A stretch of DNA of 64,000 nucleotides from Pontibacter aydingkolensis (GTDB lineage Bacteria; Bacteroidota; Bacteroidia; Cytophagales; Hymenobacteraceae): positions 124,001-188,000 of the forward strand of contig NZ_JAHYXK010000006.1 in NCBI RefSeq assembly GCF_019443125.1. Reading direction: 5' to 3'. A program made the position numbers and the translations under genes. Within the stretch, counting starts at the first letter, position 1. Each line of letters starts with the position of its first letter. Shown piece by piece: positions 37,165 through 39,858 of the stretch. Below the pieces are notes generated by a model. That model was not told the DNA's origin, made no database searches, and was given only the letters and a program-made list of their open reading frames with translations.

Positions 37165-37251
37165 CTGTCATCTCGAACAACGTGAGAGATCTATCTAAAA
37201 TTATTGAAGAGAGTATTCTATAAAGATCTCTCACGTTGTTCGAGATGACAG
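37165..37251. repeat. Palindromic element of family 2, perfect 28-bp arms
   Basis: The left arm (37165-37192, starting CTGTCATCTCGAACAACG) and the right arm (37224-37251) are exact 28-bp complements with a 31-bp centre. Arm length and the GAGAGATCTATCTAAAA junction match other members (29076-29157; degenerate 47651-47765). It lies between two terminators of convergent genes, so termination alone would make it redundant. Confidence 0.8.
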
Positions 37252-37338: not shown

Positions 37339-37803
37339 TTACTGCCCTGCCCTATTACGGAGGCGCCGGCGTAACTCCTGCATTACTTTTTTGTTGAGCT
37401 GTGCCTCTGATTTATATAGTTTCATGACCTGCTGCGGCGTTAAGATAGTCTTAAACTCGTTGTAATATTTGCGGCGGATGGTGCTGATCTTTATCGCATT
37501 ATCCAAATGAGATGTTATCAGTTTGTCAGCGTCATCAGCACTAAGACTGTCTGGATTGGTACCCATTAGCCTGCCTTGCCTGGCAAAATTTATTTCATTT
37601 ATCTCTGCCTCATACCGTTTGTAGACAGGCGCAAGCTCACTCATTTTAGCATCACTCAAGTCCAGCGCATTTTTAATCTCGACCAGTTTTGCCTGCGTTA
37701 CACGTGCCTGAAGGTTAGGGTTATTTCTTAGGTTCTGCGCCTGAGCTGCAAAAGGGAGCAACCCGATAAAGCAAAGTATAAAAAATCTAAAAAGTTTGTT
37801 CAT
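37339..37803 (-). CDS. Small periplasmic CpxP/Spy-like helical protein
   Basis: A 154-aa exported protein; signal peptide MNKLFRFFILCFIGLLPFAAQAQ. The mature part is helical and charged: LVEIKNALDLSDAKMSELAPVYKRYEAEI, then NEFKTILTPQQVMKLYKSEA. The LTPQQ near the end resembles the LTxxQ motif of the CpxP/Spy/CnrX group, periplasmic stress chaperones or metal sensors. It is the last gene of an ECF sigma/anti-sigma operon and overlaps the anti-sigma gene by 17 bp when started at 37803; an ATG at 37821 would add six residues. A sensing role by analogy with CnrYXH or RseA systems is inference. Confidence 0.72.
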   Translation of the reverse strand: MNKLFRFFILCFIGLLPFAAQAQNLRNNPNLQARVTQAKLVEIKNALDLSDAKMSELAPVYKRYEAEINEINFARQGRLMGTNPDSLSADDADKLITSHLDNAIKISTIRRKYYNEFKTILTPQQVMKLYKSEAQLNKKVMQELRRRLRNRAGQ

Positions 37804-38344
37804 CTGTGATTGTCTGCTCATATGTTACAAGGCCTGTTTCCGCTTTGGCGGCCAACAGGAATAATTCTTCATCTGTTATACTTGCCAGCACATCGTCAAG
37901 CGTTTCCGGCCTATCTGTTTTAGCTAGTTGTATTGGCTGCTGACTTTCTGCAGGGGCAGGCGTTTTTGGTGCAGTTGCTATGGTCGGCTTTTCAGGTCTT
38001 GCTTTGGCAGTTGTTGTCTCTTGGTTGGGCAGCTCTCTTGTTTCCGGAAGATCTCCGTTTACTACAGGAGTATTTTGCAATGTATCCTGCTGTGCTGCGG
38101 CTATGATATTTTCTTTAGGGGCAGTGCGGTTGGTATACATAAAATAGCCTACAGTGAATAGTATAACCAGACTGGCCGCCACAGAAAGTGCCCGCCACAA
38201 GAGTAGTTTAGGTTGTTTTGTGACATTGTTTCTGCGTTCAGCCTCGGCTAGAGTGCTTTCAGTTATCTTATCAAAAAAGTCCTGCGGCACCTTGTAAGGC
38301 ATTCGCTTTCCAACTTTATCAAAATCAAATTTATCTTCCATCAT
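37787..38344 (-). CDS. Putative membrane-anchored anti-sigma factor
   Basis: A 185-aa protein with one membrane helix at residues about 48-68 (ALSVAASLVILFTVGYFMY). The N-terminus (FDFDKVGKRMPYKVPQDFFD) is cytoplasmic and would bind the sigma factor. The periplasmic part is low-complexity, rich in Pro, Thr and Lys (EKPTIATAPKTPAPAE). No zinc anti-sigma (ZAS) Cys motif is seen. Its start overlaps the sigma gene stop (ATGA, 38341-38344), the usual coupling for sigma/anti-sigma pairs. The assignment rests on context and topology, not on a recognised domain. Confidence 0.75.
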   Translation of the reverse strand: MMEDKFDFDKVGKRMPYKVPQDFFDKITESTLAEAERRNNVTKQPKLLLWRALSVAASLVILFTVGYFMYTNRTAPKENIIAAAQQDTLQNTPVVNGDLPETRELPNQETTTAKARPEKPTIATAPKTPAPAESQQPIQLAKTDRPETLDDVLASITDEELFLLAAKAETGLVTYEQTITDEQTF

Positions 38345-38886
38345 TCGTTAATCATAAACTCTTTAACCTTCGTGCTGGCATAATGGTAGTTAGTTTTTAA
38401 GGTAGAAACCGAACTATCCAGTATCTGGCTTATCTCTTCGTAACTTAACTCGTCGTAGTAGCGCATATTAAACACCAGCTGCTGCTTTTCAGGTAATCTC
38501 AGGATAGCCTCCTGAAACTTAATTAGTATTTTGTCTCCATCCACAGTGCTGTTATCATGTAGTGTATTTATCAGTTTTTCGCTCAGTTCATCGTAGGAGG
38601 TTAAAAACTGCTTTTTAGTCCTGAACAGCCGGATGCATTCGTTGGTGGCAATGCGATAGAGCCAGGTGTATAGTTTGCTGTCGCCGGCAAAAGTATGCAG
38701 CTTGTTGTATACATTTATAAAGGTTTCCTGCAGTATGTCCTGCGCATCTTCGTGAGATACCACCAAGCGCCGTATATGCCAGTAAATCCTTTCATTGTAT
38801 TTGTTCATCAACAAGGTAAAGCCTTTGCTCTTTGTACTTTGCTCACGAAACATCGACAAAATCTCTTCGTCTGTCGTCTCTGCCAT
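38341..38886 (-). CDS. ECF RNA polymerase sigma factor
   Basis: A 181-aa sigma-70 family factor. Region 2 is visible as RIYWHIRRLVVSHEDAQDIL with QETFINVYNKLHTF and YTWLYRIATNECI (residues about 28-95). Region 4 is LRLPEKQQLVFNMRYYDELSY then ISQILDSSVSTLKTNYHYA (about 130-170). It directs RNA polymerase to a stress regulon. It is first in a three-gene operon with an anti-sigma candidate and a CpxP-like protein, and divergent from a lipoprotein with a similar helical build. No recognised promoter was found for it. Confidence 0.92.
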   Translation of the reverse strand: MAETTDEEILSMFREQSTKSKGFTLLMNKYNERIYWHIRRLVVSHEDAQDILQETFINVYNKLHTFAGDSKLYTWLYRIATNECIRLFRTKKQFLTSYDELSEKLINTLHDNSTVDGDKILIKFQEAILRLPEKQQLVFNMRYYDELSYEEISQILDSSVSTLKTNYHYASTKVKEFMINE

Positions 38887-39237
38887 TAAATCCTGTTGCT
38901 ATAAAAAACCATCCATACACCTTAGAAGACAAAAAAGCCCAAAGGTTAAATATGTAGCTGATAATCTTGTATTGCAACTCCCAAGAGGGAAATTACACCC
39001 TGAAAATCAAGCAATTAATTACAATATTAAAATATTTTATATTGTGTAATTTAACTTTTATACTTTTTCATCTTCATAATAACAAATGCTGTAAAGCCAG
39101 TGGTTTAATCAAGCTATAAAACCAGAGGTTTAACTGCTAATTTCAGGCTGTGCAGGTACCTGGATTTGTGTACTGATGTATACCAAAATCATAAAATTAA
39201 AATATACTTTGTTAATCTACCTCTAACCTAAAACACC
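38887..39237. promoter_or_regulatory. Divergent control region with direct repeats
   Basis: A 351-bp gap between the sigma operon and a divergent lipoprotein. It contains two near-identical dodecamers, CCAGTGGTTTAA (39097-39108) and CCAGAGGTTTAA (39122-39133), spaced 25 bp start to start. These are candidates for ECF promoter elements or a repressor site. AAGTATA/TATACTT copies sit at 39059 and 39203. The region is otherwise AT-rich. The regulatory role is inference. Confidence 0.4.
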
Positions 39238-39858
39238 ATGAGAAACCAGAAACTTACCTTCGGAGTACTGGCTATGTCAGTATTGCTTACCTTCTCAGCC
39301 TGCCAGAAAGACAATGCCATAAAGCCTGTTGTAGAAGAGGCAGCTTTGGAGTTTGAATCAGAAGTTTATCAGCTGCCAGACATTGATGACCTTGAAAACC
39401 CTGTTGTGACAGGAGATACTGAAACAACGCTTTTTAGCACGCAGACATCCAACAACACTGTATCGCCGGAACGTAGGCTTTCCTATATTCTTAAACAACT
39501 AAGACTTGACGAAAACCAGCGTAGGGCGGTTAGAGCTTATGTAGAGCAACATGCTGTTTGCATTGAAGAACACCGCAGCAAAGTACAGGAAATGCACCAG
39601 CAACTGCTCAGAAAAGCAAATGCCGCACGTGAAGATTATATAATGGCGTACAAAGCCGGAAGAATTACAAAGCCTGAACTGGATGAAAAGCTAAAAGCGT
39701 TACAAGGCAAATTGCGTGAGGAAATACAGAAACTAGAGCAAAAGCAGTTTCATATCCGCATCATGCGCAAATGCAGAGCCGAACTCTTTACAAATATCGC
39801 TTCTGTGTTAAACCCTGAGCAGAAACACAAGTTTCGCCGCTGGGTACAGAGCCTGTAA
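39238..39858 (+). CDS. Lipoprotein with CpxP-like helical domain
   Basis: A 206-aa lipoprotein; the lipobox is LLTFSAC (Cys21). After an acidic linker (EEAALEFESEVYQLPDIDDLE) comes a charged helical region with LRLDENQRRAVRAYVEQHAV, a His/Cys pair CIEEHRSK near residues 122-130 and LNPEQKHKFRRWVQ at the end. LxxxQ-type motifs of this kind occur in CpxP/Spy/ZraP proteins that bind metals or misfolded proteins. It is divergent from the ECF sigma operon and is a plausible regulon member. A terminator follows. Confidence 0.72.
   Translation: MRNQKLTFGVLAMSVLLTFSACQKDNAIKPVVEEAALEFESEVYQLPDIDDLENPVVTGDTETTLFSTQTSNNTVSPERRLSYILKQLRLDENQRRAVRAYVEQHAVCIEEHRSKVQEMHQQLLRKANAAREDYIMAYKAGRITKPELDEKLKALQGKLREEIQKLEQKQFHIRIMRKCRAELFTNIASVLNPEQKHKFRRWVQSL

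Follow-up and report, generated by a model that had tools for sequence, protein, structure and literature searches.

Known systems and the Pontibacter locus

In the CirY-CirZ-Spy system of Phocaeicola vulgatus, a member of the Bacteroidota, genes for an extracytoplasmic function (ECF) sigma factor, an anti-sigma factor and a Spy-like protein lie in one operon. As far as the published account describes it, the sigma factor raises its own operon, and when cirZ, which encodes the anti-sigma factor, is deleted, cirY, spy and two genes downstream are upregulated (PMC13114119). Here we analyze a cassette of four genes, an operon of this kind and a divergent lipoprotein gene, located at positions 37,339-39,858 of a 64,000-nt stretch of Pontibacter aydingkolensis DNA (assembly GCF_019443125.1, contig NZ_JAHYXK010000006.1, positions 124,001-188,000, forward strand). 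The whole stretch is referred to as the window, position 1 being its first letter, and the 4.72-Mb genome as G000.

The cassette shares with CirY-CirZ-Spy the gene order sigma factor, anti-sigma factor and secreted protein, the last of which is Spy-like on weak evidence, and its promoter motif predicts a similar action of the sigma factor on its own operon. The two systems, likened here by description, differ in that the P. vulgatus regulon as described comprises two downstream genes and no divergent lipoprotein gene, and is connected with a colitis-related signal (PMC13114119). CnrY-CnrX-CnrH of Cupriavidus metallidurans, according to the descriptions available, also consists of a sigma factor that transcribes its own operon, an anti-sigma factor with a short domain and a periplasmic partner with a Spy fold. 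It differs in gene order, in that CnrX is membrane-anchored and binds metal, and in its output, a resistance-nodulation-division (RND) efflux pump.

Since CirY-CirZ-Spy is the same kind of operon, the three-gene unit is already known. An earlier note on this DNA, made from the sequence alone, had proposed a circuit of a kind not assigned to any known group; this is not supported, because the operon of sigma factor, anti-sigma factor and Spy-like protein is widespread in the phylum and already published. What is new is the cassette's own sigma clade, together with a divergent gene for a probably Spy-like lipoprotein under a matching predicted promoter. A literature search for this four-gene variant, in which subscription papers were mostly out of reach, found no paper.

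On balance, the cassette is probably an envelope-stress circuit that is self-contained and autoregulated, with its own operon and the lipoprotein gene as the only evident targets. Little of the envelope-stress control of Bacteroidota has been worked out compared with that of Escherichia coli. As a small and testable form of the phylum's operon, in which two promoters are predicted and a single target is evident, the cassette could reveal how a Spy-like partner acts on an anti-sigma factor.

Organization and conservation of the cassette

The distinguished features are the following:

37339..37821 (likely start 37803), minus strand: third gene, encoding a secreted helical protein without a lipobox; orthologues in eight other cassettes
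37787..38344, minus strand: anti-sigma factor, 185 amino acids (aa); 4-bp overlap with the sigma gene; both ends conserved in an alignment of nine
38341..38886, minus strand: ECF sigma factor, 181 aa; Pfam Sigma70_r2 and Sigma70_r4_2
38921..38950, minus strand: predicted ECF promoter of the sigma operon, TTTAACCTTT-N12-CTTC-TAAG; kept in 9/9 cassettes
39050..39079, plus strand: predicted ECF promoter of the lipoprotein gene, TTTAACTTTT-N12-CTTC-ATAA; kept in 9/9 cassettes
39097-39108 and 39122-39133, plus strand: two exact dodecamers, downstream of the predicted lipoprotein promoter
39238..39858, plus strand: divergent lipoprotein, lipobox FSAC followed by QKDN; predicted C-terminal four-helix Spy/CnrX-like domain, residues about 79-206

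All four genes proposed in the earlier note are present where it placed them, as are the ATGA overlap of the sigma and anti-sigma genes, the control region (a gap of exactly 351 bp) and the two exact dodecamers within it. The motifs LTPQQ of the third protein and LNPEQ of the lipoprotein, which it had read as endings, occur near but not at the C-termini. The third gene more likely starts at 37803, and its orthologues start there too.

A third-gene profile search (E ≤ 1e-20) detected the gene in 9 of the 204 genomes of the family, five in the genus group of the window and four in another; the carriers include Pontibacter cellulosilyticus and Botryobacter ruber. All nine contain the four genes in the order lipoprotein, gap, sigma factor, anti-sigma factor and third gene, with the lipoprotein gene divergent. 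The proposal that the operon and the lipoprotein gene form one control unit is thus supported by a layout common to every cassette. Several flanking genes are shared between the window and one carrier (G207) and two with another (G212), while the neighbours of the other carriers differ. Among 59 related genomes, lipoprotein relatives were found in 10 (one a weak partial match) and strong anti-sigma matches (E below 1e-40) in three, P. aydingkolensis included.

Two genomes contain a second, decayed copy of the anti-sigma tail and the third gene (L054, G031:C1:2621335-2621971; L138, G000:C34:281756-282046). Stop codons interrupt the G031 copy, and tblastn revealed no sigma gene adjoining these copies, which suggests that the cassette was duplicated and later lost.

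A promoter motif on both sides of the gap

The pattern TTTAACYTTT-N12-YYTC (26 bases) was read by eye from three cassettes (window, G031 and G027). In the window, each side of the 351-bp gap has one copy, at 38925-38950 (minus strand) and 39050-39075 (plus strand). The six cassettes found later provided 12 held-out flanks, and the pattern is present in all of them (9 exact, 3 with one mismatch). In 2000 sets of dinucleotide shuffles the mean was 0.001 for exact occurrences and 0.05 when one mismatch was allowed, the largest count being 2. Over all 18 flanks the pattern is exact in 15 and has one mismatch in three; the sigma side has eight exact copies and one with a mismatch, the lipoprotein side seven and two. 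Beyond the pattern, every cassette continues as TCTAAR on the sigma side and TCNTAR on the lipoprotein side.

ECF promoters have the general form AAC-N16-CGTC, and the geometry of the cassette motif, AAC-N16-YYTC, fits this form. A CGT −10 box has been reported for the ECF motif of the flavobacterium F. psychrophilum (PMC9723704). The sigma operon and the lipoprotein gene would thus be transcribed by this sigma factor from two matched promoters.

Alternatively, the lipoprotein gene could be a mere neighbour driven by a housekeeping sigma factor, the upstream motif being coincidental. In six genomes (G010, G014, G005, G028, G016 and G008) a lipoprotein relative is encoded and the 12 kb examined lack this sigma operon, which shows that the gene does not depend on having the operon beside it. 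Set against this, the motif lies in all nine lipoprotein flanks with its side-specific TCNTAR continuation, and the nearest of the six lone genes, that of G010, carries an AAC-N16-CGTC box upstream (by eye). We consider this alternative very improbable. The lone lipoprotein at the G010 locus (L048, 5930-5985) belongs to the cassette type and may be controlled by a different ECF sigma factor.

Exact matches to the pattern number 37 in the nine whole genomes, 15 of them in cassette gaps, compared with 11 for the reversed pattern. One exact copy in the P. aydingkolensis genome (G000:C44:118214-118239), identical to a copy at G207:C1:1125540-1125565, stops 6 bases before a downstream gene, which we take to be electron-transfer-flavoprotein-like. 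Two one-mismatch hits (G000:C34:282831-282856 and G000:C31:3599-3624) are near-identical, differing in a single base, and perhaps belong to a repeated gene; the C34 hit lies close to the decayed third-gene copy mentioned above.

The sigma factor and its paralogues

The sigma factor matches Pfam Sigma70_r2 (1.5e-15) and Sigma70_r4_2 (5.1e-14). Against NCBIfam NF058625, the GFO_1088/PG0214 sigma family, it scores 84.9 bits, under the curated cut-off of 130. A second operon of related kind is located on contig C42 of the same genome, its sigma factor being 46% identical. Operons of the C42 type adjoin the same neighbour genes, presumably of transketolase type, in this genome and in other members of the genus.

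An unrooted tree was built from the nine cassette sigma factors, 18 paralogues and six other sigma factors of the P. aydingkolensis genome. The cassette proteins form a single clade of nine (support 0.994). All nine have LKTNYH in the recognition helix, where 17 of the 18 paralogues have SVGALKASYH and one has SVGALKTSYH.

In an even draw of 395 genomes of the phylum (171 genera), the third-gene family was found in 150 genomes and 91 genera. Among the 30 best loci, all of which were examined, a sigma gene lies within 1.5 kb of the third-gene relative in 30, the anti-sigma motif pattern is present in 18, and a lipoprotein relative in none. The paralogous operon resembles the cassette in gene order and in the N-terminal motif of the anti-sigma factor, with a third gene 19-26% identical, and differs from it in sigma clade, in recognition helix and in having no lipoprotein relative at any of these 30 loci.

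Nineteen paralogue loci were viewed by eye for promoter-like boxes. Four of them, all outside the genus (L139, L144, L145 and L146), contain TTAAAC[CT]TTT and TCTAA in the same geometry; two further loci look partial, and none was seen in the remaining 13. The box of the four distant loci thus begins with TTAAAC, as against TTTAAC in the cassette. A single-base difference at −35, coupled with an altered recognition helix, would make these paralogous sigma factors a natural case of promoter-specificity change.

The anti-sigma factor

The anti-sigma factors comprise a conserved N-terminus (KxMPYxVPxxFF in the alignment of nine), one hydrophobic helix (residues 47-65 in the window protein) and, after a variable stretch rich in Pro, Thr and Ala, a C-terminal peptide that is again conserved (type E[TS]LxxLLAxxxDEE). 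A Pfam scan assigned no family at cut-off. As the earlier note had pointed out, there is no zinc motif: HxxxCxxC is absent and none of the nine proteins contains a cysteine. Class I anti-sigma domains without zinc are among those described (PMC7406223), and such a domain is conceivable here. The note had also called the periplasmic tail rich in Pro, Thr and Lys; with 9% Pro, 16% Thr and only 5% Lys, it is Pro/Thr-rich and not Lys-rich.

The Dma anti-sigma factors of Bacteroidota, as described, share with these proteins an anti-sigma domain, a single transmembrane helix and a disordered periplasmic tether, and end in an outer-membrane beta-barrel. A barrel of the Dma type was considered for the cassette and dropped: all nine proteins are 174-185 aa long, and the 104-120 residues past their transmembrane helix are too few to form one.

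The third protein

Orthologues of the third protein in the eight other cassettes are 52-71% identical to it. At a lax threshold (E ≤ 1), 28 of 40 family members match Metal_resist (PF13801; best 4.9e-5) and 25 of 40 match LTXXQ (PF07813; best 1.2e-5), while the window protein itself matches neither. Its model has a mean predicted local distance difference test (pLDDT) score of 72.7. Foldseek gave STV matches at E 0.01-0.03 and none below 0.001. In VIA-align, where Z under about 13 may be chance for helical bundles, the best match was 3g6i (Z 9.3, root-mean-square deviation (rmsd) 8.2, 127 residues aligned), and CnrX (Z 6.8; 3.7, 72) and CpxP (Z 6.7; 2.8, 71) were also found; Spy is not among the 50 best matches listed, which does not exclude a likeness to it. 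Sequence profiles revealed no convincing relative of solved structure for this protein or for the lipoprotein.

Four of the 40 family members match DUF3826 (best 2.9e-4). The top structure, 3g6i, originates from Bacteroides and is, we presume, a member of that family; it is possible that DUF3826 forms a bridge to the Spy/CpxP group.

Judged by its family relatives and by fold, the third protein may be a secreted, distant relative of Spy, CpxP and CnrX. The earlier note's proposal that both outer proteins are CpxP-related thus holds in a distant and weak form: Pfam matches in relatives and the fold comparison speak for it, and the weak side is the missing Pfam match of the third protein, the sub-cut-off score of the lipoprotein and the lack of a profile alignment between the two. 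Comparison of the family profiles found no direct homology of the outer proteins.

The same note had offered metal sensing, and a circuit like CnrYXH, with the third protein as a CnrX-like sensor, would consist of the same three kinds of component; the Metal_resist matches among relatives and the presence of CnrX among the fold matches of both outer proteins point the same way. CnrX, however, requires a Met ligand (PMC7689651), and no His, Cys or Met column beyond the start Met is kept in all nine cassette third proteins (best: one His in 7/9 and two Met in 8/9). In addition, a Pfam scan of 10 cassette neighbours detected no metal-efflux family. Lacking a conserved ligand set, the metal-sensing proposal is unsupported and we regard it as highly unlikely; a CnrX-type site was dropped, a variable one being still conceivable. 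A transporter of the major facilitator superfamily adjoins the G194 cassette, and genes with a similar N-terminus lie near those of G197 and G201.

A stronger alternative, indeed the main one, gives the third protein no role in regulating the anti-sigma factor: it would be an effector chaperone only, as Spy is in the P. vulgatus system, and the stimulus would act directly on the anti-sigma tail. The account of CirYZ describes Spy as a regulon product with a protective function and not as a sensor (PMC13114119), and the conserved C-terminal peptide of the anti-sigma factor could itself be the input. The sigma gene beside the third gene in all 30 of the best phylum loci suits a regulatory partner, without proving one. 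We rate the effector-only role as a serious contender, though clearly the less probable one.

The divergent lipoprotein

The lipoprotein matches LTXXQ at E 3.6e-4 (21.6 bits), below the curated cut-off of 24.3, and 5 of 15 lipoproteins match this family. Since the cut-off is not reached, it and the third protein are called Spy-like and not LTXXQ members. Only the part of its model from residue 74 onwards is confident. The first 14 structural matches listed are all STV, Spy or CnrX (Z 10.6 to 7.3), with STV at Z 10.6 (rmsd 5.3 over 95), Spy, which we take entry 6bie to be, at 8.2 (6.1, 95) and CnrX at 7.9 (4.3, 103). As Z values of this size can be chance, a Spy-type fold, and with it a Spy/CnrX-like domain, is likely and not proven.

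A surface-export signal of the form C-X-K-(D/E)2-X is described for Capnocytophaga (PMC5080379). The lipid cysteine is followed by QK(D/E)(D/E) in 7 of 10 cassette-type lipoproteins (nine cassettes and the lone G010 gene), the exceptions being QKDN in the window, QKND in G194 and QQEE in G189. Only 3 of 10 SusD-type proteins of the P. aydingkolensis genome have K at +3, most showing C-x-acidic patterns, so the sequence is compatible with an export signal at best. Surface display of the lipoprotein is possible, and would give a Spy-like protein an unusual location.

Cysteines C108 and C179 are present in all 10 cassette-type lipoproteins and in none of the five lone relatives (G014, G005, G028, G016 and G008), which carry a cysteine at 61 instead. 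H112 was listed alongside the two cysteines in the window protein. One could envisage a surface Spy-like holdase whose C108/C179 pair makes it a redox-tuned outer-membrane shield or sensor, the sigma factor serving a private surface-to-cytoplasm loop with dedicated chaperones inside and outside the outer membrane and nothing else under its control; we consider this speculative and unlikely.

Proposed mechanism

In the envelope-stress circuit that we favour, the membrane-bound anti-sigma factor would at rest hold the ECF sigma factor through its short cytoplasmic N-terminus, its Pro/Thr-rich tail spanning part of the periplasm and ending in the conserved peptide. The secreted Spy/CpxP-type third protein would act in the periplasm and probably feed back on the anti-sigma factor, for example by binding the C-terminal peptide until misfolded protein draws it off. 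Envelope disturbance would lead to loss of the anti-sigma factor, and the freed sigma factor would act at the two matched divergent promoters, that of its own operon (amplification and new inhibitor) and that of the lipoprotein gene. The lipoprotein would be an outer-membrane-anchored, Spy-like protector, which may be surface-displayed.

Several observations weigh against this reading. The fold matches of both outer proteins lie in the chance range for helical bundles, and the export signal of the window lipoprotein lacks one of the two acidic residues. Furthermore, 22 of the 37 exact promoter sites lie outside cassettes; the four in the P. aydingkolensis genome were viewed and are within or at the start of coding regions. 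A looser promoter search of this genome gave 48 sites compared with 26 for reversed-pattern controls. At only about twice the control, this neither shows nor excludes further targets of the sigma factor. The search for a wider regulon by the looser pattern was set aside as too noisy to be informative, since in G201 it gave 17 sites, below the 35 of the control.

Dodecamers and other repeats

The earlier note had suggested the dodecamer CCAGnGGTTTAA as a regulatory site and proposed a search for it at other promoters. Genome-wide, CCAGNGGTTTAA is present in five exact copies, two at this locus, and its reversed control in none; the gaps of the other eight cassettes contain no copy. The window contains 28 near-identical 12-mer pairs (offset 13-40, one mismatch or none), and three shuffles contain 6, 5 and 5, so that one such pair is unexceptional in this DNA. 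Being downstream of the predicted lipoprotein promoter, the two copies would lie in the predicted leader. With few genome copies, no conservation and near pairs common in the window, the dodecamer was rejected as a regulon site and is probably without regulatory meaning.

An inverted pair of another sequence, GTCATCTCGAACNNNGTGAGAGATCT, is located between an S1/P1-type nuclease gene and the third gene, at 37167-37192 (plus strand) and 37224-37249 (minus strand). The genome contains 11 exact copies, compared with 0 for the reversed control, and a second inverted pair is present on contig C24, which indicates a small repeat family.

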